A program made the position numbers and the translations under genes. This document shows positions 7,095 through 27,337 of a stretch of DNA of 32,123 nt, piece by piece; within the stretch, counting starts at the first letter, position 1, and the number at the start of each line of letters is the position of its first letter. This DNA is from Rhodococcus phenolicus. GTDB taxonomy: Bacteria > Actinomycetota > Actinomycetes > Mycobacteriales > Mycobacteriaceae. Under the pieces are notes generated by a model. That model made no database searches. It was not told where the DNA came from and saw nothing but the letters and a program-made list of their open reading frames with translations. Location: assembly GCF_001646785.1 (NCBI RefSeq), contig NZ_LRRH01000122.1, positions 1-32,123 of the forward strand, given 5' to 3'.

Positions 7095-8204
7095 ATGGGC
7101 ATCAAGACTTTCTGGTACCTCACCCAGGCCGACGGGGACTACCCGTGGAGCCCGGGCGGGCTGTTCCCGGTCGACGGGCAGCGGCAGATCGAGCTGGCGA
7201 AGACGATCGACGCCGGCGGGTTCGACGGTGCGCTCGTCGCGACGTGGCCGAACGATCCGTTCGTCTCGGCGACCTGGGCCGCCGCGCACACCTCGCGTAT
7301 GAAGTTTCTCGTCGCGATCTACGCGAACATGACGCCGGCGCGGCTGCTCGCGGAGAAGGCGCTGACGTTCGACGCCTTCAGTGGTGGCCGCCTGATGATC
7401 AACTCGGTCAACGGCCGGGAGAACATCCTGACCCGGTACGACATGAACGTCGAACACGACCGGCGTTACGAGCTGGGGGAGCAGTACTGGGCGGACTTCC
7501 GCCGGATCTACGCCGAGGGCACGGAGTCGAATTTCCCGAACACGCCGCTGCGCATCGACGCACCGGGCGGCGGCCACACCGTGCCGCTGTGGGGAACCGG
7601 CGATTCACCTGCGGGACTGCAGAATTCGGGCAGGGTGCTCGATGCGTACCTGATCATGCTGCGCGAGACGGCGTTCGTCGAATCGAAATTCACCGCGGCC
7701 CGCGAGTCCGCGGCGGCGGAAGGCCGGGAGTTCACCGATTTCGGTGCCCTCTCGGGCGTGATCGTCCGGCCCACGCAGGCCGAGGCGCTGGACCGGTTCC
7801 GGTCGTTGTTCGAGAAGGCCGGTATCGATCAGGTCACCGACGTTCTGGACAAGGCGGTGCGGCGGCGCACGGGTGGCAAGCAGGATCTCAGGACGTTCAC
7901 CGCGCGCGATGCGCAGCGGCAGGGGTGGGTCGACACGATCAATGCCGGTCGCCTGCCCGAACCGAAGGATCTGTCCCTCGGTGACGGCCTGTACGCGGGG
8001 ATCACGGCGTGGTCGCCGCTCGACATCTTCGCGACCGGATCGTCGGCGGTGTACTACGCCGGCACGCCGGACGAGATCACCGGGCATGTGCGTACCCTGC
8101 GGGACCGCACCGGCCTCACGTCGTTGATCCTCGCCGGATGGCCGCTCATCGACGAGGCGAAGCACGTTGCCGAGCACCTGATTCCGCGTTTCCGGGAGTT
8201 GTGA
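7095..8204 (+). CDS. LLM-class FMN-dependent monooxygenase, alkanesulfonate/SsuD-like
   Basis: A 369-residue luciferase-like (TIM-barrel) flavin monooxygenase. The N-terminus KTFWYLTQADGDYPW followed by PVDGQRQIELAKTIDAGGFDGALV, then MKFLVAIYANMTPARLLAEKALTFDAFSGGRLMINSVNG, is the pattern of SsuD and dimethylsulfone-type monooxygenases, which use FMNH2 from a partner reductase to release sulfite from organosulfur compounds. The later motifs PLWGTGDSPAG and TSLILAGWPLIDEA are also family-like. ATG 7095 follows AAGGACGAG. No flavin reductase or ABC sulfonate importer lies next to it, so the substrate is open. A strong hairpin terminator follows at 8238. Confidence 0.88.
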   Translation: MGIKTFWYLTQADGDYPWSPGGLFPVDGQRQIELAKTIDAGGFDGALVATWPNDPFVSATWAAAHTSRMKFLVAIYANMTPARLLAEKALTFDAFSGGRLMINSVNGRENILTRYDMNVEHDRRYELGEQYWADFRRIYAEGTESNFPNTPLRIDAPGGGHTVPLWGTGDSPAGLQNSGRVLDAYLIMLRETAFVESKFTAARESAAAEGREFTDFGALSGVIVRPTQAEALDRFRSLFEKAGIDQVTDVLDKAVRRRTGGKQDLRTFTARDAQRQGWVDTINAGRLPEPKDLSLGDGLYAGITAWSPLDIFATGSSAVYYAGTPDEITGHVRTLRDRTGLTSLILAGWPLIDEAKHVAEHLIPRFREL

Positions 8205-8319: not shown

Positions 8320-8358
8320 TTAATGTAGGCTACCCAAAGTGAGGTTAGGCAGACCTCT
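8320..8358. promoter_or_regulatory. Two tandem DtxR/IdeR-type iron boxes
   Basis: Box 1 (8320-8338, TTAATGTAGGCTACCCAAA) and box 2 (8340-8358, TGAGGTTAGGCAGACCTCT) each match the 19-base iron-box consensus TTAGGTTAGGCTAACCTAA at 14 positions, counted by hand. They begin 20 bases apart, so two repressor dimers could sit side by side. They end 24 bases before the importer lipoprotein's start and overlap the expected core promoter (TAGGCT, 8326-8331, could be a -10), so iron-loaded repressor should block transcription. Confidence 0.78.
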
Positions 8359-8382
8359 CTTTTCCCTCGAAAGAAATGTGAC

Positions 8383-10029
8383 ATGCAGTTGACGCGTATC
8401 GTTCGGCGCTCGTATGCCGTTCCCCTCGTTCTCGCGCCGGCGCTCCTCGTGGCCGCCTGCGGCTCCGGCGGCACCACGGACACGGCGTCCGGTCCGGACA
8501 CCGCGGACTCGCTCACCATCGCGGTCGCCAAGGACAGCGGCCCGCTGAACATCTTCGCCGGACAGACCGACCAGATGACCGAACTCGTCTACGACAAGCT
8601 CCTGTCGCCCTCACCGTACGTCGCCGACCCGCAGCCGTGGCTCGCCACCGATGTCCGGCAGGTCGACGCGACCACCTGGGACGTCGACCTCCGCGAGGAC
8701 GTGACCTGGCACGACGGCGAGGCGTTCACCGCCGACGACGTCGTCTTCAGCTTCCACTACATGCACGCTGCGCCGACCGGGCGCTACACCCACCACGTCA
8801 ACGACACCCCGTCGATCTCCACGGTCGAGACCACCGGCGAGAACTCGGTCCGCTTCGTGTGCGACTACGCGTGCCCCGAGCTCGGTCCCGTCACCCTCGC
8901 GGACCTGCCGATCATCCCCGAGCACGTGTGGTCGAAGGTCGATCCGTCCAAGGCCAAGGAGATGACCGACCTGCCGGTCGGCACCGGGCCGTTCAAGCTC
9001 GTCGACTACAGCCCCACCAGCGGCTACCGCTTCGAGGCGAACGCCGACTATTTCGCCGGAACCCCGACGGTGGAGGAGCTGGTCATGCCGGTGATCGCCG
9101 ACAATGCCGCCGCCTTCACCGCGCTGAGCTCCGGCCAGATCGACGCCGCCGATCGTGCCCTCACCCCGGAGCTGGTGGACCGGTTCACCGCGTCGAACGA
9201 CATCGGCGTCGTCACCGTCGCGCCGCTGAGCTACCCCGAACTCAAGCTCAACTTCACGCGGGACACGTTCGCGCAGGCCGACTTCCGCGCTGCCCTGAAC
9301 CTCGCGGTCGACCGCGACGAGCTGCTCGAGGTCGTCGGTCTCGGCCAGGGCCGCCCCGGAACGCAGGGGTACGTCCATCCGGATGCGCCGTTCGCGGACC
9401 CGGACGCGTCGACCCCGTACGACGCCGCGCGCGCCTCGGCGATGCTCGACGAGCTCGGCTGGGCCGACCGCGACGGTGACGGCCGCCGCGAGAACCCCGC
9501 GGGTGAGCCGACCGTCTTCGACCTGATCGTCAACGGCGGCAACGCGCCGCAGGTCCGCGCCGCGGAGCTGCTCGCCGAGGACTTCGCCGAGGTCGGCGTC
9601 GCGGTCGCGGTCAAGCCGCTCGACTCGGGTTCGCTGTCGGACGCCTCGTCGAACAAGACCTACGACATGATGGTCACAACCAACAGCCCGCACGCCGTGG
9701 CGGACTCGACGCAGTTCATCATGTCGCACCGTTCCGGCAACCTGTGGAAGCATCCGGACCTGGTCTACCCCGAGTTCGACGCGCTGTACGACGCGTGGAA
9801 GGTCACCGAGACCAACGACGCCCGGATCGCCGCGATGCAGGACATGCAGAAACTGTTCAACCGGCAGCCGACCGCCATCGCGCTGTACTACCCGGACGAG
9901 TTCTGGGCCTTCCGGGCGGACACGTTCGGCGGCTGGATCGAAACCCCCGGCTACGGCATCGTCCACAAGTGGTCGTTCCTGCCCGCGGACGTCGTCGAGA
10001 CGGCCAACGCAGAAGCGCCGCAGGACTGA
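8383..10029 (+). CDS. ABC transporter substrate-binding lipoprotein, SBP family 5 (peptide/nickel type)
   Basis: A 548-residue extracytoplasmic solute-binding protein. The signal peptide MQLTRIVRRSYAVPLVLAPA ends in lipobox LVAAC, so Cys26 would be lipidated and anchor the protein to the membrane. Family 5 features include LVYDKLLSP, DLREDVTWHDGEAFTADDVVFSF, LPVGTGPFKLVDY, FRAALNLAVDRDEL and the C-terminal lobe ending FWAFRADTFGGW. The family carries oligopeptides, nickel complexes, opines and some siderophore-like compounds. The paired iron boxes upstream point to a metal-chelate or iron-starvation role (inference). An Asp-rich DRDGDGRREN loop near residue 365 resembles those seen in related binding proteins. 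The permease gene follows after three bases. Confidence 0.92.
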   Translation: MQLTRIVRRSYAVPLVLAPALLVAACGSGGTTDTASGPDTADSLTIAVAKDSGPLNIFAGQTDQMTELVYDKLLSPSPYVADPQPWLATDVRQVDATTWDVDLREDVTWHDGEAFTADDVVFSFHYMHAAPTGRYTHHVNDTPSISTVETTGENSVRFVCDYACPELGPVTLADLPIIPEHVWSKVDPSKAKEMTDLPVGTGPFKLVDYSPTSGYRFEANADYFAGTPTVEELVMPVIADNAAAFTALSSGQIDAADRALTPELVDRFTASNDIGVVTVAPLSYPELKLNFTRDTFAQADFRAALNLAVDRDELLEVVGLGQGRPGTQGYVHPDAPFADPDASTPYDAARASAMLDELGWADRDGDGRRENPAGEPTVFDLIVNGGNAPQVRAAELLAEDFAEVGVAVAVKPLDSGSLSDASSNKTYDMMVTTNSPHAVADSTQFIMSHRSGNLWKHPDLVYPEFDALYDAWKVTETNDARIAAMQDMQKLFNRQPTAIALYYPDEFWAFRADTFGGWIETPGYGIVHKWSFLPADVVETANAEAPQD

Positions 10030-10032
10030 CAC

Positions 10033-11028
10033 ATGACCGTCGCGCGACGAGCAGGGCAGTACGCCCTCGTACTGTGGGCGGCGGTGACGCTGAACTTCGC
10101 GTTGCCCTACTTGGCGCCCGGCGATCCGGTCGAATACCTCTACGGGGGTGACCAGCAGTCCCTCGATCCGAAGTACATCGCGCAGATGCGCGCGGACTAC
10201 GGGCTCGACCGGCCGATATTCGAGCAGTACCTCTCGTTCTGGTCCGGGCTGCTGCACGGAGATCTCGGAATGTCCGTGCAGCACAACCGGCCCGTCGTCG
10301 ACGTCCTGTGGGAAAAGCTTCCCTGGACGCTTGCGCTGGTCGGCATCGGCACGCTGCTCGCGTTCGTCATCGGCACGCTGCTCGGCACGTGGGCCGCGTG
10401 GCGACGCGGCACGGCGAAGGAAACGGCGACCGTGGTCGGTGTGCTCACCGTCGACTCCATGCCGGGTTTCTTCGTCGGCATGATCCTCATCGCGGTGTTC
10501 TCCGTGAACCTCGGATGGTTCCCGTCCTACGGGGCCGCGGCGATCACCTCCACCGGCGGTGAATGGCTGCTCGAAGTCGCGTCCCGGATGGTCCTGCCGG
10601 TCGCGACGCTCACCATCGCCGGCATCGGCGGCTTCTTCCTGATGACCCGGGCCTCGATGGTCGGGGTCCTCGACGAACCCTTCATCCGGCTCGCCCGCGC
10701 GAAGGGTCTCGGCGAGTTCCGGGTTGCGGTCGGGCACGCGCTGCGCAACGCGTTGCTCCCCGTCTACACCACCCTGACCCTCACGGTCGGCGTGTTGCTG
10801 TCCGGCGCAGTCGTCGTCGAATCGGTGTTCGCCTATCCGGGACTCGGGAAGCTCACCTACGACGCGGTGACCGCCCGGGACTACCCGATGCTGCAGGGCG
10901 CGTTCCTGCTCGCCACCATCGGCATCATCGCCGCGAACCTGATCGCCGATGCGACCTACCCCCTGCTGGATCCGAGGGTCCGGCGGGACCGGACGTCGGC
11001 ACCGACCCGCCAAGAGGCAGCCGTATGA
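10033..11028 (+). CDS. ABC transporter permease, DppB/OppB type
   Basis: A 331-residue inner-membrane permease with about six transmembrane segments. It begins with the DppB-type helix (QYALVLWAAVTLNFALPYLAPGDPV), followed by the long external loop containing YGLDRPIFEQYLSFWSGLLHGDLGMS, and carries the cytoplasmic EAA loop FIRLARAKGLGEFRVAVGHALRNALLPV, where the ATPase docks. The ending YDAVTARDYPMLQGAFLL and ADATYPLLDPRVR is also typical. ATG 10033 comes three bases after the binding-protein stop, and the TGA overlaps the next ATG (ATGA), so translation is coupled. It would form the channel together with the permease half of the next protein. Confidence 0.93.
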   Translation: MTVARRAGQYALVLWAAVTLNFALPYLAPGDPVEYLYGGDQQSLDPKYIAQMRADYGLDRPIFEQYLSFWSGLLHGDLGMSVQHNRPVVDVLWEKLPWTLALVGIGTLLAFVIGTLLGTWAAWRRGTAKETATVVGVLTVDSMPGFFVGMILIAVFSVNLGWFPSYGAAAITSTGGEWLLEVASRMVLPVATLTIAGIGGFFLMTRASMVGVLDEPFIRLARAKGLGEFRVAVGHALRNALLPVYTTLTLTVGVLLSGAVVVESVFAYPGLGKLTYDAVTARDYPMLQGAFLLATIGIIAANLIADATYPLLDPRVRRDRTSAPTRQEAAV

Positions 11029-12722
11029 CGATCATCGGAACGAAGACCCGGTCGCAGCGTCTCGCACTGGCGGGGGCGGTGATCCTGGGAATCCTGCTGG
11101 TGTGCGCGATCTTCGCGCCGTGGCTCGCCCCGTTCGACCCGGGAGAACGTGTGGCACGGCCGTTCGCCGCTCCGTCCGGCGATCATTGGCTCGGGGCCGA
11201 CGACGTGGGGCACGACCTGCTGTCGATGCTGATCCACGGAGCCCGCGTCTCGTTGTTCGTCGGTGTCGTCGCCGCGATCGTCGCCACTGTGATCGGCACG
11301 CTCGTCGGTGTCGTCGCGGGGTATGCGCGCGGCGTCGTCGACTCGGTGCTCATGCGCATCGTCGATGTCGTGCTGTCCCTGCCGGTGCTGCCGTTGACCA
11401 TCGTGATCGGCGTGTTCGCCGGCCCCGGCCTGCGCACGCAGATCATGGTCATCTCGGCGGTGCTGTGGGCGGGTATGGCCCGCGAGTTGCGGGCGCAGGT
11501 CCTGACACTGCGTGAACGCGACCACATTCAGGCCGAGCGCGCCATGGGCGCCGGGCCGATGTATGTGCTGCGGCGTCACATCGCTCCTGCGGTGGTGCCC
11601 CTGGTGATCCCGCAGTTCGTGCTCACGATCAAGACCGCGATCCTGCTCGAGGCCTCGCTCGCCTTCCTCGGCCTCGGTGACATCACGTCCGCGAGCTGGG
11701 GATCGATGCTGTCGATGGCGCACTCGCGCAACGCATTCCTCACCGATGCCTGGTTGTGGTGGGTCCTGCCCCCGGGTCTGGCGATCGGCGTCACGGTACT
11801 CGCGTTCGCGTTGCTCGGCAACGCGATCGAGGAGCGATCCCGCCCGGTGCTGGTGCGGCGCCGCAAGTTCCGGCGCCGTGCGGATCACGGCACGGCCGGC
11901 GCTGCCGGGACGCCGAGCGGCGACGCCGGGCATCCGCTCGTGATCGACGACCTCACCGTCGTGTACGGCGAGAACGGCCGGGGAGCCGCGAACGTGTCGT
12001 TCTCGGTCGCGCCCGGCGAACTCGTCGGACTGGTCGGGGAATCGGGCAGCGGCAAATCCACCGTTGCCGCCGCCACCGTGGGACTGCTGCCCGCGGCCGC
12101 ACAGATCACCTCGGGGCGGGTCCTGGTGTCCGGCCGCGACGTCGCGGGCATGGAACCGGCCGAACTGCGGGGCATGCGCGGAAACCGCATCGCGCTGATC
12201 CCACAGGAAGCACTCAGCGCGCTGAATCCGGTGCGCACCATCGGTTCCCAGCTCGACGAGGCGGTCCGGGTCCATCGATCATGCAGCCGGAACGACGCCC
12301 GCGAACGCACTCTCGACCTGCTGAACCAGGTGGGACTGGGTGCCGACCGCGTCGACGCCTACCCGCACCAACTCTCGGGCGGCATGCGCCAGCGCGTCGT
12401 CATCGCGATGGCGCTGGCCAACGAGCCGGACGTGCTCATCGCCGACGAACCCACCAGCGGCCTCGACGTACTCCGCGAAGTCGAAGTGCTCGCCCTGCTC
12501 GACGATCTGCGGGTCCGGCACTCGCTGGCGCTGCTCGTCGTCACCCACAACCTGCCGGTCATCGAACGGATCGCCGACCGCATCGCGGTGATGAAGGACG
12601 GGGCGCTCGTCGAGATCGGTACCGTCGCGCAGATCACCGGAGCACCGGAGCATCCCTACACGCGGCACCTCGTCGAGTCCGCTCCCCGGCTCCGGCCGCT
12701 CGTGCAGGAGGTCGTGCAGTGA
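11025..12722 (+). CDS. ABC permease-ATPase fusion (DppC-DppD type)
   Basis: One 565-residue protein joins two subunits that are usually separate. Residues 1-275 are a DppC/OppC-type permease: first helix [52 protein letters not shown] loop [22 protein letters not shown] at 171-192. A basic linker ([12 protein letters not shown], about 278-289) leads to an ATPase from 303 to 565 with Walker [10 protein letters not shown] (338-346), Q-loop Gln394, signature LSGGM (450-454), Walker B LIADEP (471-476), H-loop His508 and the peptide-transporter C-terminal segment [14 protein letters not shown]. All ATPase residues are present. No stop or frameshift separates the halves. The start overlaps the previous stop, and its own stop overlaps the next GTG. 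Confidence 0.93.
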
Positions 12723-13516
12723 GCACGCTTCTCGACATCGACGCACTGTCGGTCTCGTTCGACGGTGTCCCGGCCGTGTCCGACGTGACCTTGCAGGTCG
12801 CGGCGGGCGAATCCGTCGCGCTGGTCGGCGGATCCGGCGCCGGGAAGTCGACGGTGGCGCGGGCCGTGGCCGGACTGGTCGATCCGACATCGGGCAGCAT
12901 CCGGTTCGACGGTGTCGATCTGGCGTCCGCAGGCCGTAAACGGCGGCGTGAACTGCGCCGCGACATGCACATGGTCTTCCAGGACCCCTACGCGTCGTTG
13001 CCTCCCGGGCTCCGGGTCCGTGACATCGTCGCCGAACCGATGGTGATCCACGGACTCGGAGATCGCGGCGAACGCCGGGACGCGGCGATCGTAGCCCTCG
13101 ACGCGGTGAAACTGACACCGGCCGAGGACTATCTGGATCGCTTTCCCCACGAGCTGTCCGGCGGTCAACGTCAGCGTGTCGCCTTCGCCCGGGCGCTCGT
13201 GACCCGCCCGCGGCTGCTCCTCGCCGACGAACCCACGAGCGGTCTCGATGCGTCCCTGCGCATCGAGATAGTGGATCTGATGGCCGAACTCGCGGTCGTC
13301 CAGAACCTCGCGGTCGTGCACATCACGCACGACCTGGCCCTTGCGGGCCGCAGTTGCGAGAACATCGTCGTCATGCAGGGCGGCCGAGTCGTCGAATCGG
13401 GGCGCGCCGGCGACGTTCTCGCCCGTCCGGAACACCACTACACGGCATCGCTCGTCGCGGCCGCGTCGGGCACTCACCCACGCACGACGAACAGCAGTAC
13501 GACACAGGAGGATTGA
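12719..13516 (+). CDS. ABC transporter ATPase, DppF/OppF type
   Basis: A 265-residue ATPase that would pair with the ATPase half of the preceding fusion. It has Walker A GGSGAGKST (about 38-46), Q-loop MVFQDPYASLPPGLRV, signature LSGGQRQRVAFARAL, Walker [15 protein letters not shown] and H-loop ITHD. ASLPP replaces the more usual ASLNP. It is shorter than most OppF proteins (about 320) and lacks the long C-terminal oligopeptide extension. GTG 12719 overlaps the previous stop (GTGA), giving tight coupling. The FmdE-like gene follows after one base. Confidence 0.92.
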   Translation: MSTLLDIDALSVSFDGVPAVSDVTLQVAAGESVALVGGSGAGKSTVARAVAGLVDPTSGSIRFDGVDLASAGRKRRRELRRDMHMVFQDPYASLPPGLRVRDIVAEPMVIHGLGDRGERRDAAIVALDAVKLTPAEDYLDRFPHELSGGQRQRVAFARALVTRPRLLLADEPTSGLDASLRIEIVDLMAELAVVQNLAVVHITHDLALAGRSCENIVVMQGGRVVESGRAGDVLARPEHHYTASLVAAASGTHPRTTNSSTTQED

Positions 13517-13517
13517 C

Positions 13518-14024
13518 ATGCCCGCATCGCTCGAGGTCGTCGAGAACGGAACCCCCATCGAGTTCACCGTCGACGACGTCATGAAATACCACGGGCCGGG
13601 ATTTCCCGGTGGAGTCGCGCACGCGGTGAAGGTCCTCGAGCGCGCGCTGCCGGTGCTGAGTCCCGACGCACCCGCCGAGCGTCGTGAGATCACGGTCGCC
13701 ACCGCACATCGCGGGCCGGGCGTGCGCGACACGTTCGAGGTGGTGACCCGGGCGGTGACCGAGGGACGGTTCACCGTCGACGCCGAGCTCGAGCGCCGCG
13801 ATCGCGGGCAGACGCTCGAGCGGTACGTGTTCGCGCTGACCTACCGCGGGCGGACGGTGCGGCTCGAGATCCGTGACGGCTTCGTCACCGACGAGTTCAT
13901 CACTCTCGGACGCAAGGCCGAGCGCACCGACGACGAGGAAGCGCGGCTGACCGTGCTCAAGCAGGAGATGGCGGACCGTCTGCTGGCCGCACCCGCCGAC
14001 GAGGTCTACGACGTCGTGGACTGA
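13518..14024 (+). CDS. FmdE-like protein of unknown function
   Basis: A 168-residue protein closing the importer operon. ATG 13518 comes one base after the ATPase stop, with AGGAGG at 13507-13512. The segment VMKYHGPGFPGGVAHAVKVLERAL (about residues 20-43) recalls the HGHxCPG..GxxxA pattern of the FmdE family (named from formylmethanofuran dehydrogenase subunit E), whose characterised members bind metal or act near metal centres. Here Phe stands where FmdE has the metal-binding Cys. A second family-like block is TVATAHRGPGVRDTFEVVTRA, and the C-terminal half is charged. No signal peptide is seen, so the protein is cytoplasmic. The FmdE link is by eye and moderate; the function is unknown, but its place in an iron-box operon suggests handling of the imported compound. 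Confidence 0.65.
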   Translation: MPASLEVVENGTPIEFTVDDVMKYHGPGFPGGVAHAVKVLERALPVLSPDAPAERREITVATAHRGPGVRDTFEVVTRAVTEGRFTVDAELERRDRGQTLERYVFALTYRGRTVRLEIRDGFVTDEFITLGRKAERTDDEEARLTVLKQEMADRLLAAPADEVYDVVD

Positions 14025-14077
14025 TGCCGCCGGGGCCGGGCTCCGGCGATCGTGCCGCTCCTGTCCGACGGTGCCGC

Positions 14078-14083
14078 TAGCCT
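14078..14083 (+). promoter_or_regulatory. -10 element TAGCCT before the DUF4287 gene
   Basis: TAGCCT ends six bases before ATG 14090, and no ribosome binding site is present, which fits a leaderless transcript. The gene may therefore be expressed independently of the iron-regulated importer operon 65 bases upstream. Confidence 0.5.
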
Positions 14084-14089
14084 GCGCTC

Positions 14090-14299
14090 ATGACCGAGAA
14101 GGTGAAGGGCCCGCAATCGTATTTCCCGTCCATCGAGCAGAAGTACGGTCGCCCGATCGACGAGTGGAAGACCTTGATCCGCGAGTCGGATCTCACCGGG
14201 CACATGGAGCTGGTGAACTGGTTGAAAGGCGAGCACGGCATGGGCCACGGCCACGCCAACGCCCTCGTCGCCCACACCCTGAAGGAGAACGCAGGCTGA
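14090..14299 (+). CDS. DUF4287 domain protein
   Basis: A 69-residue protein that is essentially a single DUF4287 domain. SYFPSIEQKYGRPIDEWKTL, then HMELVNWLKGEHGMGHGHANALV, matches the family's SYFPSIExKYGxPxxxW and WLKxxHGxGHGHANALV pattern. The family is widespread in actinobacteria and of unknown function. It has no signal peptide or membrane segment. It is probably translated from a leaderless message and ends three bases before a strong terminator hairpin that it shares with the convergent ThuA-like genes. Confidence 0.9.
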   Translation: MTEKVKGPQSYFPSIEQKYGRPIDEWKTLIRESDLTGHMELVNWLKGEHGMGHGHANALVAHTLKENAG

Positions 14300-14301
14300 G
14301 A

Positions 14302-14336
14302 AAGGGCCCGCCACCGAACCTCGGTGGCGGGCCCTT
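14302..14336. terminator. Bidirectional terminator between DUF4287 and ThuA-like genes
   Basis: Arms AAGGGCCCGCCACCGA (14302-14317) and TCGGTGGCGGGCCCTT (14321-14336) pair perfectly around a three-base loop. It lies between two convergent genes and can serve both strands. Confidence 0.85.
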
Positions 14337-14351
14337 CGCCTGCGTCGACGC

Positions 14352-15026
14352 TCAGGTGTTGTCGACCCAGCGCAGCAGCGCGTACAGGAACCTGGTCGCG
14401 CCCGGCATGAAGTTGCTGCCGTGGTGGTAGGTCGGGTCGAGGGTGGTGACGATGAGGCGGCCCGGGGTCGAGGTGGTGTCCTCGTAGAGCATCATGCCCG
14501 CGTCGTGCGCGATGCCGTCGGCATCGGGTTCCTCGGAGACCAGCAGCGGCACCACGTCCGCGTCGGTGCGCAGCAGCCCGTGGTGATGCCAGATGACGGA
14601 CTTGGTGCTCAGGTACGTCCATGCACCGTGATCGTGACTGCGGGTGCGGATCAGGGGGTCCTCGCCGTGCAGCCACCACCAGAAGTTCGTCGGCCGCGGC
14701 TCCCACTCGACTCCGGGAAGCCATGTGTGGACACCGTTCTCGCCGAGCACGACGAGCGTGTCGCCCCGCTCGGCGACCGCACGGAACTGTGCGGCGTGGC
14801 GGGCCACGAGCCCGGGATGCAACCGATCGGCGACGATCACCGTCGTGTAGCCGTCGAGATCGCCGTCGGCGAGATCGGCCAGATAGTGGAAGTCCGGCTG
14901 GTGGGCGAGCACTGCCGGGTCCCTCATCGTCTGCAGGTGGGGATACGAGCCCCCGTGGACGATCGCCAGGCGCCGGTCGCGCAGCGGTGCGATGTCGGTG
15001 CGGGCGAAGGGTTCGGCGGTGGTCAT
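14352..15026 (-). CDS. ThuA/glutamine-amidotransferase-like protein, second of a pair
   Basis: A 224-residue protein with a class I amidotransferase/ThuA-like alternation: strand RRLAIVHGG, strand YTTVIVADRLHPG, then DTLVVLGENGVHTWLPG, where a nucleophile Cys would be expected in true amidotransferases but none is seen. A Trp/His-rich middle (FWWWLHGED, SVIWHHHGLL) and GRLIVTTLDPTYHHGSNFMPGATRFL follow; the histidines could bind metal. ThuA-type proteins act on sugars or have unknown roles. ATG 15026 overlaps the stop of the upstream partner (ATGA), so the pair is translationally coupled and shares the iron-box promoter. The open frame extends further upstream to 15287, but that part is shadow of the partner gene. 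Function unknown. Confidence 0.75.
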   Translation of the reverse strand: MTTAEPFARTDIAPLRDRRLAIVHGGSYPHLQTMRDPAVLAHQPDFHYLADLADGDLDGYTTVIVADRLHPGLVARHAAQFRAVAERGDTLVVLGENGVHTWLPGVEWEPRPTNFWWWLHGEDPLIRTRSHDHGAWTYLSTKSVIWHHHGLLRTDADVVPLLVSEEPDADGIAHDAGMMLYEDTTSTPGRLIVTTLDPTYHHGSNFMPGATRFLYALLRWVDNT

Positions 15027-15676
15027 CGCTGCGTCAGCCAATCGATCAGTTGCGGGGTCATCCGCGCGGAGGTGTTCGGGTCGTTCTTCCAGCCGGTCAG
15101 GTCGTTCCCGCCGTGGACGAGCACCTGGCCGTCCCCGAGCGGGTAGACGAAGTCGAGGGGCAGCGCGTGCCGGCCGATGCGGGTGGTGACGATCGCATTC
15201 TCGGGAATCTTGTCGACGTACCCGCGTGCGTAGAACCCGGTGACGCCCTTGCGGGAGCTCAGATCGGTGGGATCGACGCCGGCCCACACCGGGTGCGGAT
15301 CGGCGAGCGTGATCGCGAGGTCCTTCGGTCCGGTGTAGGCGAGCTTGCGCCAGACACCGAGGCCGGGAAGGAATTCGGTGAGCGCGTGTCCCATGACGGC
15401 GATGCGGCCGCCCCGGGTCACGAATCCGGTGAGCAGATCGCGGTTGCGTTCGAGGAAGATCTGATCGACGCCGCCGCCGATGATCAGTCCCTTCACGTGC
15501 GTGAGGTCCACGGCAGGGAGGTTGTAGACATCGACCAGGCCGACCCGCGGCCGGGAATCGGGGTCGCCGGCGAGGTCGTCGGTACCCATCGTCACGTGCA
15601 GGACGGCGGCGACCGCGGTGGGATCGTCGCCGATGGGGGAGTGCGCCGGGGCGGGCGGCCGGTTCGATTGCGACAC
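15023..15676 (-). CDS. ThuA/glutamine-amidotransferase-like protein, first of a pair
   Basis: A 217-residue protein. After a Pro-rich N-terminus it has strands RVGLVDVYN and VKGLIIGGGVDQIFLE, then GGRIAVMGHALTEFLPGLGVW. It follows the plan of the second protein, with GHA in place of the nucleophile Cys motif. DPHPVWAGVDPTDL and the ending QVLVHGGNDLTGW resemble ThuA and related glutamine-amidotransferase-like proteins. The start is GTG 15676, with AGGAAG upstream. Two tandem iron boxes lie 88-126 bases before it, so the pair is probably induced when iron is scarce. The two partners look like diverged relatives that could form a heteromer (inference). No signal peptide or membrane segment is seen; the activity is unknown. 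Confidence 0.75.
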   Translation of the reverse strand: MSQSNRPPAPAHSPIGDDPTAVAAVLHVTMGTDDLAGDPDSRPRVGLVDVYNLPAVDLTHVKGLIIGGGVDQIFLERNRDLLTGFVTRGGRIAVMGHALTEFLPGLGVWRKLAYTGPKDLAITLADPHPVWAGVDPTDLSSRKGVTGFYARGYVDKIPENAIVTTRIGRHALPLDFVYPLGDGQVLVHGGNDLTGWKNDPNTSARMTPQLIDWLTQR

Positions 15677-15763
15677 TGTTGCTTCCTGTTGTTGCTTCCG
15701 TGTGGTGACGGGTCCGGGTCTCCGCGGTCGTGTCGACTGCCAGGCTCGCCGGGTTCGTCCGAA

Positions 15764-15802
15764 TAAGGTGAACCTTAGATAGTAAAGGTAAGCCTAAACA
15801 GG
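15764..15802. promoter_or_regulatory. Two tandem iron-box-like sites before the ThuA-like pair
   Basis: TAAGGT-GA-ACCTTA (15764-15777) is a perfect inverted repeat, and AAAGGTAAGCCTAAACA begins at 15784. Each 19-base window matches 14 positions of the degenerate iron-box pattern TWAGGTWAGSCTWACCTWA, though fewer of the strict consensus. The start-to-start distance is 20 bases, the same as in the pair before the importer operon, which supports a real double site for a DtxR/IdeR-type regulator. Confidence 0.65.
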
Positions 15803-16546: not shown

Positions 16547-17176
16547 ATGAAGACCGCACTCGACACCGTCTACGTCGCCACCTACGACACGCTCGCCGAC
16601 TGGGAGACCGGACATGCCACCGCCTACCTGGCCCGTGCCGGCTACCCGATCCGTACCGTCGCGCCGAGCCGGGAGGCGGTCACGACCCTGGCCGGGATCC
16701 GCGTCGTTCCGGATCTGGTCCTCGACGAGGTCACGGTCGACGGCGCCGCGTTGCTGATCCTGCCCGGCGCCGATCTGTGGGACACCGGCGACGAACTCGC
16801 GCCGTACGCGCGTCTCGCCCGCGCCTTCCTCGACGCCGGCGTGCCCGTCGCCGGGATCTGCGGCGCGACCGCCGGACTCGCTCGCGAGGGACTTCTCGAC
16901 GACCGCGACCACACCAGCAATGTGTCCTTCTATCTCGAGGCCACCGGCTATGCGGGCGCGGGACGTTACGTCGAGACCGACGCCGTCACCGACGGTGACC
17001 TCGTCACCGCCGGCGGGACGGAACCCGTGGCCTTCGCTCGCGAGATCTTCGCCCGGCTCGGTGTGTACGAGGGGGAGGTGCTCGACGCGTGGTACCGGCT
17101 GTTCCACGACTCCGATGCCTCCGCCTTCCCGATCCTCGACGCGGCGGAGCGGGCGGCGGCGGGCGGCGAACGGTGA
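16547..17176 (+). CDS. DJ-1/PfpI family protein
   Basis: A 209-residue cytoplasmic protein of the DJ-1/ThiJ/PfpI superfamily. The nucleophile elbow VAGICGATAGLA places the conserved cysteine at Cys105, and a conserved-type glutamate sits at Glu20 (DWETGHA). The strand LLILPGADLWD (69-79) and the motif DHTSNVSFYL, with a histidine near 122, complete the site. Members act as deglycases, chaperones, proteases or isonitrile hydratases, and the sequence does not decide between them. ATG 16547 follows GGGAGG. The TGA overlaps the GTG of the MarR gene, so the two are coupled. DJ-1/MarR pairs often respond to electrophile or oxidative stress (family knowledge, not shown here). Confidence 0.9.
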   Translation: MKTALDTVYVATYDTLADWETGHATAYLARAGYPIRTVAPSREAVTTLAGIRVVPDLVLDEVTVDGAALLILPGADLWDTGDELAPYARLARAFLDAGVPVAGICGATAGLAREGLLDDRDHTSNVSFYLEATGYAGAGRYVETDAVTDGDLVTAGGTEPVAFAREIFARLGVYEGEVLDAWYRLFHDSDASAFPILDAAERAAAGGER

Positions 17177-17622
17177 GCCGCGAGGAGCAGGACCTGCTCA
17201 GCCGCGCCGCGCTCGGCGTGTTCCGTCTCAACGGCCAATTCCTCGCCGCGGCCGAAGGGCTCGCGAATCCGGCCGGTTTGACCGCTGCTCGTTGGCAGGT
17301 ACTCGGCGCGGTCCTGCGTGAGCCGCTGCCGGTCGCCGGGATCGCCCGCGCGATGGGCATCACCCGGCAGTCGGTGCAACGAATCGCGGACCTGCTCGTC
17401 GAGCAGAGGCTCGCGGACTACCTCCCGAACCCGGCGCACCGCCGCGCCAAGCTCGTCGTCCCGACCGCGGCGGGCCGCGCGGCGGTCGAGCGTATCGGTC
17501 CTGCACACGCCGAACTCGCGGCACGGCTCACCGGCGTGCTGGGTTTCGAGGGCTTCGCCGAGACGGTCCGGGTGCTCGAACGGCTGTCGGCGGCCCTCGA
17601 CGAACCGGAGGTCGCCGGGTGA
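17173..17622 (+). CDS. MarR-family transcriptional regulator
   Basis: A 149-residue winged-helix regulator. The DNA-binding domain spans about residues 35-95: LTAARWQVLGAVLREPLPVAGIARAMGITRQSVQRIADLLVEQRLADYLPNP, then the wing with HRRAKLVVPTAAG. Flanking helices would form the dimer interface. GTG 17173 overlaps the DJ-1/PfpI stop (GTGA); the frame is open a little further upstream, but the extension is shadow of that gene. It is likely an autoregulator of the two-gene operon through the TTGACAG repeats upstream. The single-cysteine redox sensor typical of OhrR is not seen near the N-terminus. Confidence 0.9.
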   Translation: MSREEQDLLSRAALGVFRLNGQFLAAAEGLANPAGLTAARWQVLGAVLREPLPVAGIARAMGITRQSVQRIADLLVEQRLADYLPNPAHRRAKLVVPTAAGRAAVERIGPAHAELAARLTGVLGFEGFAETVRVLERLSAALDEPEVAG

Positions 17623-25900: not shown

Positions 25901-27337
25901 TCAGCAGTCGAAGTACAGCTGGAACTCGTAGGGGTGCGGGCGCAGGTTGACCGGAGCGATCTCCTGCTCGCGCTTGAGCGAGATCCAGGTCTCGATCAGG
26001 TCGGTGGTGAACACGCCACCCTCGGTGAGGTACTCGTGGTCGGCCTCGAGGCGGTCGATGACCGCGTTCAGCGACGTCGGAGCCTGCGGGATGTTCTTGG
26101 CCTCCTCCGGCGGAAGCTCGTAGAGGTCCTTGTCGACCGGGGCCATCGGCTCGATCTTGTTCTTGATCCCGTCCAGGCCGGCCATCATCTGCGCGGCGAA
26201 GTTCAGGTACGGGTTACCGGAGGAGTCCGGCGCACGGAACTCGAGGCGCTTGGCCTTCGGGTTGTTGCCGGTGATCGGGATGCGGACCGCGGCGGAGCGG
26301 TTGCGCTGGCTGTACACCAGGTTGATGGGGGCCTCGTAGCCCGGCACCAGACGGTGGTAGGAGTTGATCGTCGGGTTCGTGAACGCGAGCAGCGACGGTG
26401 CGTGGTGCAGGATGCCGCCGATGTACCAGCGCGCCAGATCCGACAGGCCCGCGTAGCCGGCCTCGTCGTGGAACAGCGGCTTGCCGTCCTTCCACAGCGA
26501 CTGGTGCACGTGCATACCCGAGCCGTTGTCGCCGAACAGCGGCTTCGGCATGAAGGTGGCGGTCTTGCCGTTCTTCCATGCGGTGTTCTTGACGATGTAC
26601 TTGAACAGCTGCAGGTCGTCGGCTGCGGCGAGCAGCGTGTTGAACTTGTAGTTGATCTCGGCCTGGCCGCCGGTGCCCACCTCGTGGTGGCCGCGCTCGA
26701 GCTCGAAGCCGGCGAGCTGCAGGTTGGTGGAGATCTCGTCACGCAGGTCGACGTAGTGGTCATACGGGGCGACCGGGAAGTAGCCACCCTTGGCGCGGAC
26801 CTTGTAGCCGCGGTTCGGGGTGCCGTCGGCGTTGTACTCGTTGCCGGTGTTCCAGCCGCCGGAGATCGAGTCGACCTCGTAGAACGCACCGTTCATCTTC
26901 GAGTCGTAGGAGACCGAATCGAAGATGTAGAACTCGGCCTCGGCACCGAAGAACGCGGTGTCGGCGATGCCGGTGGACTTCAGGTACTCCTCGGCCTTGC
27001 GGGCGACGTTGCGCGGGTCGCGCGAGTAGGACTCGCGGGTGAAGGGGTCGTGGACGAAGAAGCTGACGTTCAGGGTCTTGGCGGCGCGGAAGGGGTCGAT
27101 ACGCGCGGTGGTGACGTCGGGGAGGAGCAGCATGTCCGACTCGTGGATGGACTGGAAACCACGAACGGAGGAACCGTCGAAGGCCAGGCCGTCCTCGAAG
27201 ACATCCTCGTTGAACGCCTTCGCGGGGATCGAGAAGTGCTGCTCGATGCCGGGCAGGTCGGTGAAGCGGATATCGACGTACTCGACCTTTTCGTCCGCGA
27301 TGTACTTGATGACCTCTTCGGCCGTGGTGAACGCCAC
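25901..27337 (-). CDS. glnA: Glutamine synthetase type I (beta, adenylylated)
   Basis: A 478-residue type I glutamine synthetase making glutamine from glutamate, ammonia and ATP. The N-terminal domain has [18 protein letters not shown] and the latch-forming Asp region [10 protein letters not shown]. Catalytic metal and substrate motifs include [70 protein letters not shown] and [26 protein letters not shown]. Tyr406 in [11 protein letters not shown] is the adenylylation site, so activity should be tuned by GlnE. GTG 27337 follows AAGGAG; the length equals GlnA1 of mycobacteria. A GlnR-type site lies 96 bases upstream, and a UUCG-loop terminator follows. This is the main assimilatory enzyme. 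Confidence 0.97.

Follow-up and report, generated by a model that had tools for sequence, protein, structure and literature searches.

What would an actinobacterium gain by placing a dipeptide-type importer and two coupled proteins that match no Pfam or NCBIfam model behind the same kind of putative iron operator? The question is raised by a locus of Rhodococcus phenolicus at positions 8,320 to 15,802 of contig NZ_LRRH01000122.1, which was analysed over its full 32,123 bp (hereafter, the window) and is contig 40 of a 6.28 Mb genome. An initial annotation, made from the letters alone, had read the locus as uptake and intracellular processing of a peptide-like metal chelate. Comparison with related loci leads us to a different emphasis: the two coupled proteins, here called T1 and T2, probably, though by no means certainly, form the core of a so far unrecognised module for the assimilation of iron chelates that would act in the cytoplasm behind interchangeable importers, with an FmdE-like protein as an accessory. 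In the openly licensed literature searched, no published description of the T1-T2 system was found. The features of the locus, with coordinates in the window, are as follows.

8320..8358, no strand: double IdeR-box-like operator of the importer unit (8320-8338 and 8340-8358), 5/19 mismatches each
8383..10029, plus strand: binding protein (SBP) of the SBP_bac_5 family, 548 aa, PF00496 at 249 bits
10033..11028, plus strand: permease PermB, 331 aa, PF00528 and PF19300
11025..12722, plus strand: permease-ATPase fusion PermC-D, 565 aa, a single open reading frame (ORF) with OppC_N, BPD_transp_1 and ABC_tran
12719..13516, plus strand: second ATPase, 265 aa, GTG start, PF00005 at 121 bits
13518..14024, plus strand: FmdE-like protein, 168 aa, PF02663 at 17.9 bits (cut-off 22.9)
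14090..14299, plus strand: DUF4287 protein, 69 aa, PF14117 at 95.9 bits
14352..15026, minus strand: T2, GATase1-like paralogue of T1, 224 aa, no Pfam or NCBIfam match
15023..15676, minus strand: T1, GATase1-like paralogue, 217 aa, GTG start, no Pfam or NCBIfam match
15764..15802, no strand: double IdeR-box-like operator of the T1-T2 unit (15764-15782 and 15784-15802), 5/19 mismatches each

The plus-strand unit carries the importer and the FmdE-like protein, with intergenic gaps of at most 4 bases from SBP through the FmdE-like gene. It converges with a minus-strand unit in which the T1 and T2 genes (15676-15023 and 15026-14352) overlap by 4 bases. Judged by Pfam, one SBP_bac_5 binding protein, two permease domains and two ATPase domains make a complete importer of this class. 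The gene list of the initial annotation is thus borne out save for the DUF4287 gene, which it had left out. That gene sits between the convergent units, recurs in some Rhodococcus loci only and is probably a passenger.

IdeR boxes were scored as mismatches to the 19-mer consensus TWAGGTWAGSCTWACCTWA. The four boxes listed form two pairs whose members start 20 bases apart, one pair preceding SBP and the other T1. At up to 5 mismatches the window holds a single further site, 26203-26221, inside an ORF on the minus strand (25901-27337), and about 0.1 sites per window are expected by chance (0.025 at 4 mismatches plus 0.075 at 5, from 40 first-order Markov simulations). The paired iron boxes described in the initial annotation therefore stand: four were observed against an expectation of about 0.1. 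Each box taken alone is weak; it is their position, pairing and conservation that make them convincing. The genome encodes one clear repressor of the DtxR/IdeR type (PF01325, 79.5 bits).

To place the locus among its relatives, named genomes were scanned with a T2 profile, which yielded 163 relatives; the sample used here consists of the best 80, each with flanks of up to 10 kb. The actinobacterial loci come from Rhodococcus, Tomitella, Gordonia, Nocardia, Pseudonocardia, Corynebacterium, Actinomyces, Leucobacter, Brevibacterium, Rubrobacter and Acidimicrobiales; elsewhere, T2 loci were found in Chloroflexales, Bosea, Rhodopseudomonas, Rhodoplanes, Bradyrhizobium, Microvirga, Methylobacter, Paenibacillus, Cohnella and others. 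The distribution is patchy, with T1 in 4 of 150 genomes of the order. T1 adjoins T2 in 78 of the 80 loci, 74 by gene call and four by six-frame search (L131, L137, L142, L147); the remaining two are L155, where the stretch begins at T2, and L154, which has no T1. An importer lies within 6–8 kb of T1-T2 in 77 of 80 loci. The three exceptions are L155, where the contig ends just upstream of T2, L116, whose NikA-type importer is about 8.4 kb away, and L154, which has none. The linkage between T1-T2 and an importer is well supported, and the co-occurrence proposed as a check in the initial annotation was found in nearly all of the 80 loci.

In individual loci the arrangement is closer still. The order in L144 is FecCD-FecE-FecB-T1-T2-FecB-T1-T2, with one FecCD-FecE pair for two FecB-T1-T2 sets, as if each binding protein came with its own T1-T2 pair; in L145, T1-T2 sits between the SBP and the permease. 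The Methylobacter locus L156 reads TonB receptor-FecB-FecCD-FecE-T1-T2-FmdE and then a ferritin-like gene (L156:11416-11865, PF00210, E 6.4e-17), directly downstream of this run. One might suppose that this is an ordinary iron-uptake locus in which T1, T2 and FmdE have been carried along by operon inertia, since FmdE is dispensable and a function for T1-T2 is deduced from sequence. The adjacency of T1 and T2 in 78 loci across several phyla, the occurrence of gene fusions and the retention of the pair through importer exchange make such passenger status hardly credible.

The importers themselves differ. Near T1-T2 we found the FecB-FecCD-FecE type in 51 loci, the NikA/Opp type in 19, the SsuABC type in five and the first two types together in two, with none assigned in three; the labels Fec and Nik denote occurrence within 6 and 8 kb, respectively, on either strand. 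Classes were assigned by Pfam and NCBIfam scans of examples and, for the other loci, by BLAST to those examples (e.g., FecCD at 288.9 bits and Peripla_BP_2 at 92.7 bits in L070; SsuA_fam at 180.5 bits, over its cut-off, in L135), the exception being the five SsuABC loci, which were labelled from inspection of their genes and from clustering. The statement of the initial annotation that no FecCD importer is present is thus correct for the window, but elsewhere this class is the commonest partner of T1-T2. Its proposal of a peptide-like chelate is not supported and was dropped, as T1-T2 also occurs beside importers of the FecCD and SsuABC types. With the importer class changing in this way, membership in a Dpp-like importer family says little about the ligand.

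On the T2 tree (82 rows, quick method; L154 and L104 left out, L116, L110 and L149 labelled by hand and L155 unlabelled), the importer type changes at least six times, the minimum conceivable being two, and the starred branches alone force at least four changes between FecCD and the rest. The window falls in a clade of eight NikA-type rows (98*), nested in a 20-row set (98*) whose other 12 rows are FecCD-type rhodococci and gordoniae. The window T2 shares 95% identity with its Rhodococcus zopfii counterpart, which very probably places the source of the window in that group of Rhodococcus; it is 79% identical to the T2 of L088, whose adjoining importer is of the FecCD type. This nesting, together with the identity to the L088 protein, argues that the importer was replaced while T1-T2 stayed.

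The same exchange bears on the idea that T1-T2 is a membrane-bound accessory or regulatory part of ABC importers, with no chelate chemistry. The pair is always coupled to importers and in L145 is embedded in the importer operon. Yet it accompanies importers of three classes, whose binding proteins and permeases are unrelated, and a subunit fitted to a single permease should not pass through six or more changes of class. We regard this explanation as unlikely.

Several further observations concern the surroundings of the importer. Directly upstream of it, at 7095-8204 of the window, lies a gene for a luciferase-like monooxygenase (PF00296, SsuD-like). Its homologue also borders the iron locus of R. 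zopfii and of Rhodococcus sp. HM1 (L083, L084), and in eight FecCD-type loci it is found three genes away from FecB, as though one importer had taken the place of another at a single chromosomal site. On the other side, at 16547-17622, a DJ-1/PfpI gene overlaps by 4 bases a regulator gene that looks MarR-like by eye, and this pair adjoins the iron locus in the window, L083 and L084. Both importer types converge in the Rhodococcus locus L088 (L088:5900-16185), with FecB-FecCD-FecE-T1-T2 on one side; the opposite side has NikA-type genes together with a T1-T2 fusion, two genes of the FmdE-like kind and one more T1.

Iron control was examined in the same loci. At up to 5 mismatches, an IdeR box is present at 60 of 63 FecB, SBP or T1 promoters in 53 actinobacterial loci (FecB 32/33, SBP 14/15, T1 14/15), as compared with 4 of the 545 regions that lie upstream of the loci's other genes; the promoters lacking it belong to L112, L102 and Rubrobacter L145. 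The count leaves out 24 of 87 promoter rows (nine FmdE, four ATPase, two PermB, five PermC-D, two FecCD, one FecE and one T2), two of which carry such a box, and the 63 promoters are partly non-independent, as divergent SBP and T1 genes share boxes in six loci. Box pairs (up to 6 mismatches) whose starts are separated by exactly 20 bases were seen in 20 of the 53 loci, and for both importer types. Among the other offsets, 15 through 19 account for 7, 1, 0, 0 and 1 loci and 21 through 25 for 1, 0, 0, 0 and 5. The excess at 15 (seven loci) and 25 (five loci) is a separate observation, and the operators look as if built on a 5-base repeat.

Beyond Actinomycetota, Fur and Irr patterns were used. 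In Bacillota, Fur-like boxes with 1–3 mismatches precede the operon in 5/5 loci, compared with a Fur-like site of up to 4 mismatches in 1 of 23 other upstream regions. Of the 18 alphaproteobacterial loci, 10 have an Irr-like site with 3–4 mismatches upstream of FecB, FmdE or the TonB receptor (controls, 1/59). Upstream of the SsuABC-type operon of Microvirga L135 lies an Irr-like site with 2 mismatches; a Fur-like one with 4 was seen in L118, and Irr-like ones, also with 4, in L137 and L142. The Fur and Irr part of the case is suggestive. Predicted iron control of the T1-T2 module as a whole is well supported, and the initial annotation, which had proposed such control for the window, agrees with the contrast between promoters in relatives (60 of 63 with a box) and controls (4 of 545).

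Does the importer nevertheless carry some other metal, such as nickel or cobalt, bound to an opine-type carrier, iron being the regulator only? Its family (NikA/Opp) would suit such a role, as would a Chloroflexaceae locus with genes that, by eye, resemble a CooC-type ATPase and HupE. IdeR and Fur boxes across Actinomycetota and Bacillota, as well as the swap with FecCD-type importers, speak against it. So does the clustering of locus genes, in which only TonB receptors and SsuAC genes recur as neighbours in at least four genus groups. For the window this seems quite improbable. The Chloroflexaceae locus itself is a case apart: the CooC- and HupE-looking genes lie between the NikA-type importer and T1 (L116:5400-9400), and here the metal is possibly nickel instead of iron. 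The best NCBIfam match of the window SBP is TIGR02294 (NikA) at 133 bits, far under the equivalog cut-off of 393, and among the 25 best matches listed the window importer reaches no NikA or Cnt cut-off.

The most serious rival for the ligand is heme, which would be imported by the FecCD- or SBP_bac_5-type system and handled by T1-T2-FmdE as a new heme-handling or iron-removal set. TonB receptors adjoin the FecCD-type alphaproteobacterial loci and the Methylobacter locus; all five tested match best with the hemin/hemoglobin models TIGR01785/TIGR01786, the solved structure nearest to the L156 receptor is the heme receptor PhuR, and the window SBP counts the heme-binding protein HbpA among its relatives. 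However, all five receptors fall under the curated cut-offs of these models, and 12 orthologous receptors share no invariant histidine, the residue that heme receptors use. SsuABC-type importers are not known for heme either. On balance we consider a heme ligand rather unlikely, slightly more so than a role of T1-T2 as an importer part.

What, then, are T1 and T2? They are paralogous (hhalign probability 97.2, E 3.3e-11, 168 columns) and were aligned separately, as a joint alignment with a natural fusion placed T1 rows on the T2 half. T1-T2 forms a single ORF in L058, L068 and L088, and T2-FmdE in L075. Weak matches to DUF4350 were seen for 11 of 56 T2 and 10 of 50 T1 sequences, to DUF4159 for 6/50 T1 and to DUF7408 for 5/56 T2 and 1/50 T1, none with an E-value better than 8.5e-5; DUF4350 and DUF4159 we take to be class I amidotransferase-like. 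The ThuA-like label given initially was not upheld: with E up to 1, PF06283 is matched by none of the 56 T2 and by two of the 50 T1 sequences, the better of them at 0.092. Searches of PDB sequences with T1, T2 and FmdE profiles gave nothing credible (best E from 0.061 to 0.51).

Neither T1 nor T2 has a column with more than 50% cysteine, and the catalytic cysteine of class I glutamine amidotransferases is thus missing; the usual amidotransferase chemistry is therefore ruled out. Other positions are nearly invariant, namely W116, W118, W146, H147, H149 and D197 (56/56) and H201 (55/56) in T2, and D71 and Q72 (50/50), H128 (49/50) and H188 (48/50) in T1. Our guess is that these residues may line an aromatic, histidine-rich pocket holding a metal chelate. 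No signal peptide was recognised by eye in T1, T2 or the FmdE-like protein, which suggests a cytoplasmic site, and the coupling and fusion of the genes would fit a heteromer. The initial suggestion that the importer is linked to unfamiliar intracellular proteins was sound and even understated, since it is T1-T2 that is conserved and the importer that is exchanged.

The FmdE-like label is fair, as the weak match of the window protein to PF02663 spans the whole domain, but distant, its score lying below the gathering cut-off. Among 29 relatives, eight match PF02663 (best E 5.5e-6), and the L160 protein reaches 21.6 bits (E 0.00025, hmmscan), again below 22.9. No column has more than 50% cysteine in the 29 sequences, including the region of the HG-H-x-CPG motif, which we take to provide the cysteine ligand of FmdE, while H25 and D71 are present in 29/29. 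Canonical PF02663 proteins were not found in 12 T2-bearing genomes, by a search that also missed the L160 FmdE-like protein and hence proves little. An FmdE-like gene lies within 8 kb of T2 in 44 of 80 loci. Among 151 genomes of the family, T2 is present in 21, the FmdE-like protein in 28 and both in 19. FmdE had been considered as a core member; it was dropped, being absent altogether from 15 of 18 tested T2-bearing genomes (of the 36 loci without an adjoining FmdE). From this absence and the coupling of T1 to T2 it follows that T1-T2 is the core and FmdE an accessory. Directly upstream of FmdE-like genes with no T1-T2 nearby, in another two genomes of the family (L067:10362, L069:9572), an IdeR-like site with 4 mismatches was seen, in contrast to most stand-alone FmdE genes.

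Gene order, paralogy, fusions, iron boxes and importer exchange are the computed support for the favoured reading, i.e., a cytoplasmic T1-T2 core behind interchangeable importers, from which the following mechanism is proposed. When iron is ample, IdeR on the double boxes would shut both units; when iron is scarce, IdeR would be lifted and the NikA/Opp-type ABC importer would bring in an iron chelate. The chelate is probably small, anionic and made by other organisms. Its size and charge are hinted at by the three importer classes in service, and its foreign origin by the lack of a recurrent biosynthetic neighbour in the T1-T2 loci. In the cytoplasm, T1 and T2, with a putative class I amidotransferase-like fold whose conserved cysteine was lost, would form a heteromer that receives the chelate and helps to strip or release the iron. 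The FmdE-like protein, where present, would join T1-T2 and may keep the metal or hand it on. That T1-T2 binds the chelate and releases its iron is a prediction at this stage, as are the chemistry and substrate involved and the identity of the ligand.

SIP proteins (ferric-siderophore reductases) elsewhere in the cell could do the reduction. No SIP gene stands beside T1-T2 in the 21 genomes with SIP, the nearest being about 41 kb away, a lower bound only as far as the contig reaches, several contigs being short. A bolder version of the proposal would see in T1-T2 a machine of a new class for releasing iron in the cytoplasm. The two proteins would pair as an amidotransferase-like heteromer free of cysteine, accept ferric chelates still intact from whichever importer the lineage has adopted (FecCD, NikA/Opp or SsuABC type) and take them apart with no reliance on a SIP/FhuF-type reductase or an esterase, the FmdE-like protein being an optional metal-handling partner. 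We put this forward tentatively, as a possibility to which we give less than even weight.

A number of results weigh against the favoured reading. The window boxes each miss five of 19 positions, and iron boxes were not found in Methylobacter L156, Rubrobacter L145 and Alphaproteobacteria L131 nor, with Fur and Irr patterns only, in three Chloroflexales loci. The 80 loci are the best matches and not an even sample. The fusions in L058, L068 and L088 form one clade of the T2 tree and may represent one event, and the T2-FmdE fusion was seen in one genome. Besides being missing from most of the tested genomes, FmdE occurs without T2 in 9 of 28 FmdE-bearing genomes, and when standing alone has an IdeR box in one of nine cases. 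The SsuABC type is not a known iron importer class. Finally, SIP reductase genes are present elsewhere in 21/21 genomes examined, so that T1-T2 need not be the iron-release step.

Release of iron from chelates inside the cell is known for few protein classes, namely SIP/FhuF reductases and Fes-type esterases. If T1-T2 is an iron-release step, it would represent a new class. That the pair has apparently been kept through importer replacement and belongs to no Pfam family points to a shared intracellular step that can be tested genetically. Two protein families would be named in at least Actinomycetota, Bacillota, Chloroflexota and Pseudomonadota, and their genes would mark iron-chelate importers that are now annotated as peptide, nickel or sulfonate transporters.

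Siderophore importers of the FecB-FecCD-FecE kind under IdeR/DtxR control are familiar in Actinomycetota. The locus resembles them in its iron boxes and importer logic, and 51 of its 80 relatives use the same importer class; it differs in having a NikA/Opp-type importer, and T1-T2-FmdE was met in no described system that we found. For R. equi, one report treats iron genes and IdeR-like regulators and gives iupABC as REQ24080-100 (PMC2947987); another treats fmdE expression in a methanogen (PMC10390477). With NikABCDE and CntABCDF the window shares an SBP_bac_5 protein, two permease domains and two ATPases, but the fused permease-ATPase, the iron boxes and T1-T2 set it apart. The proposed release of iron from an imported chelate would be akin to the work of SIP (PF04954), FhuF and Fes-type proteins, to which T1-T2 has no Pfam match and of which the SIP genes lie elsewhere in the same genomes. 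In comparison with DUF4350, DUF4159, ThuA and other class I amidotransferase-like families, T1 and T2 match weakly and have no conserved cysteine. Similarly, in comparison with FmdE (PF02663), the window protein matches weakly, below the cut-off, has no conserved cysteine and occurs in an iron-uptake setting.

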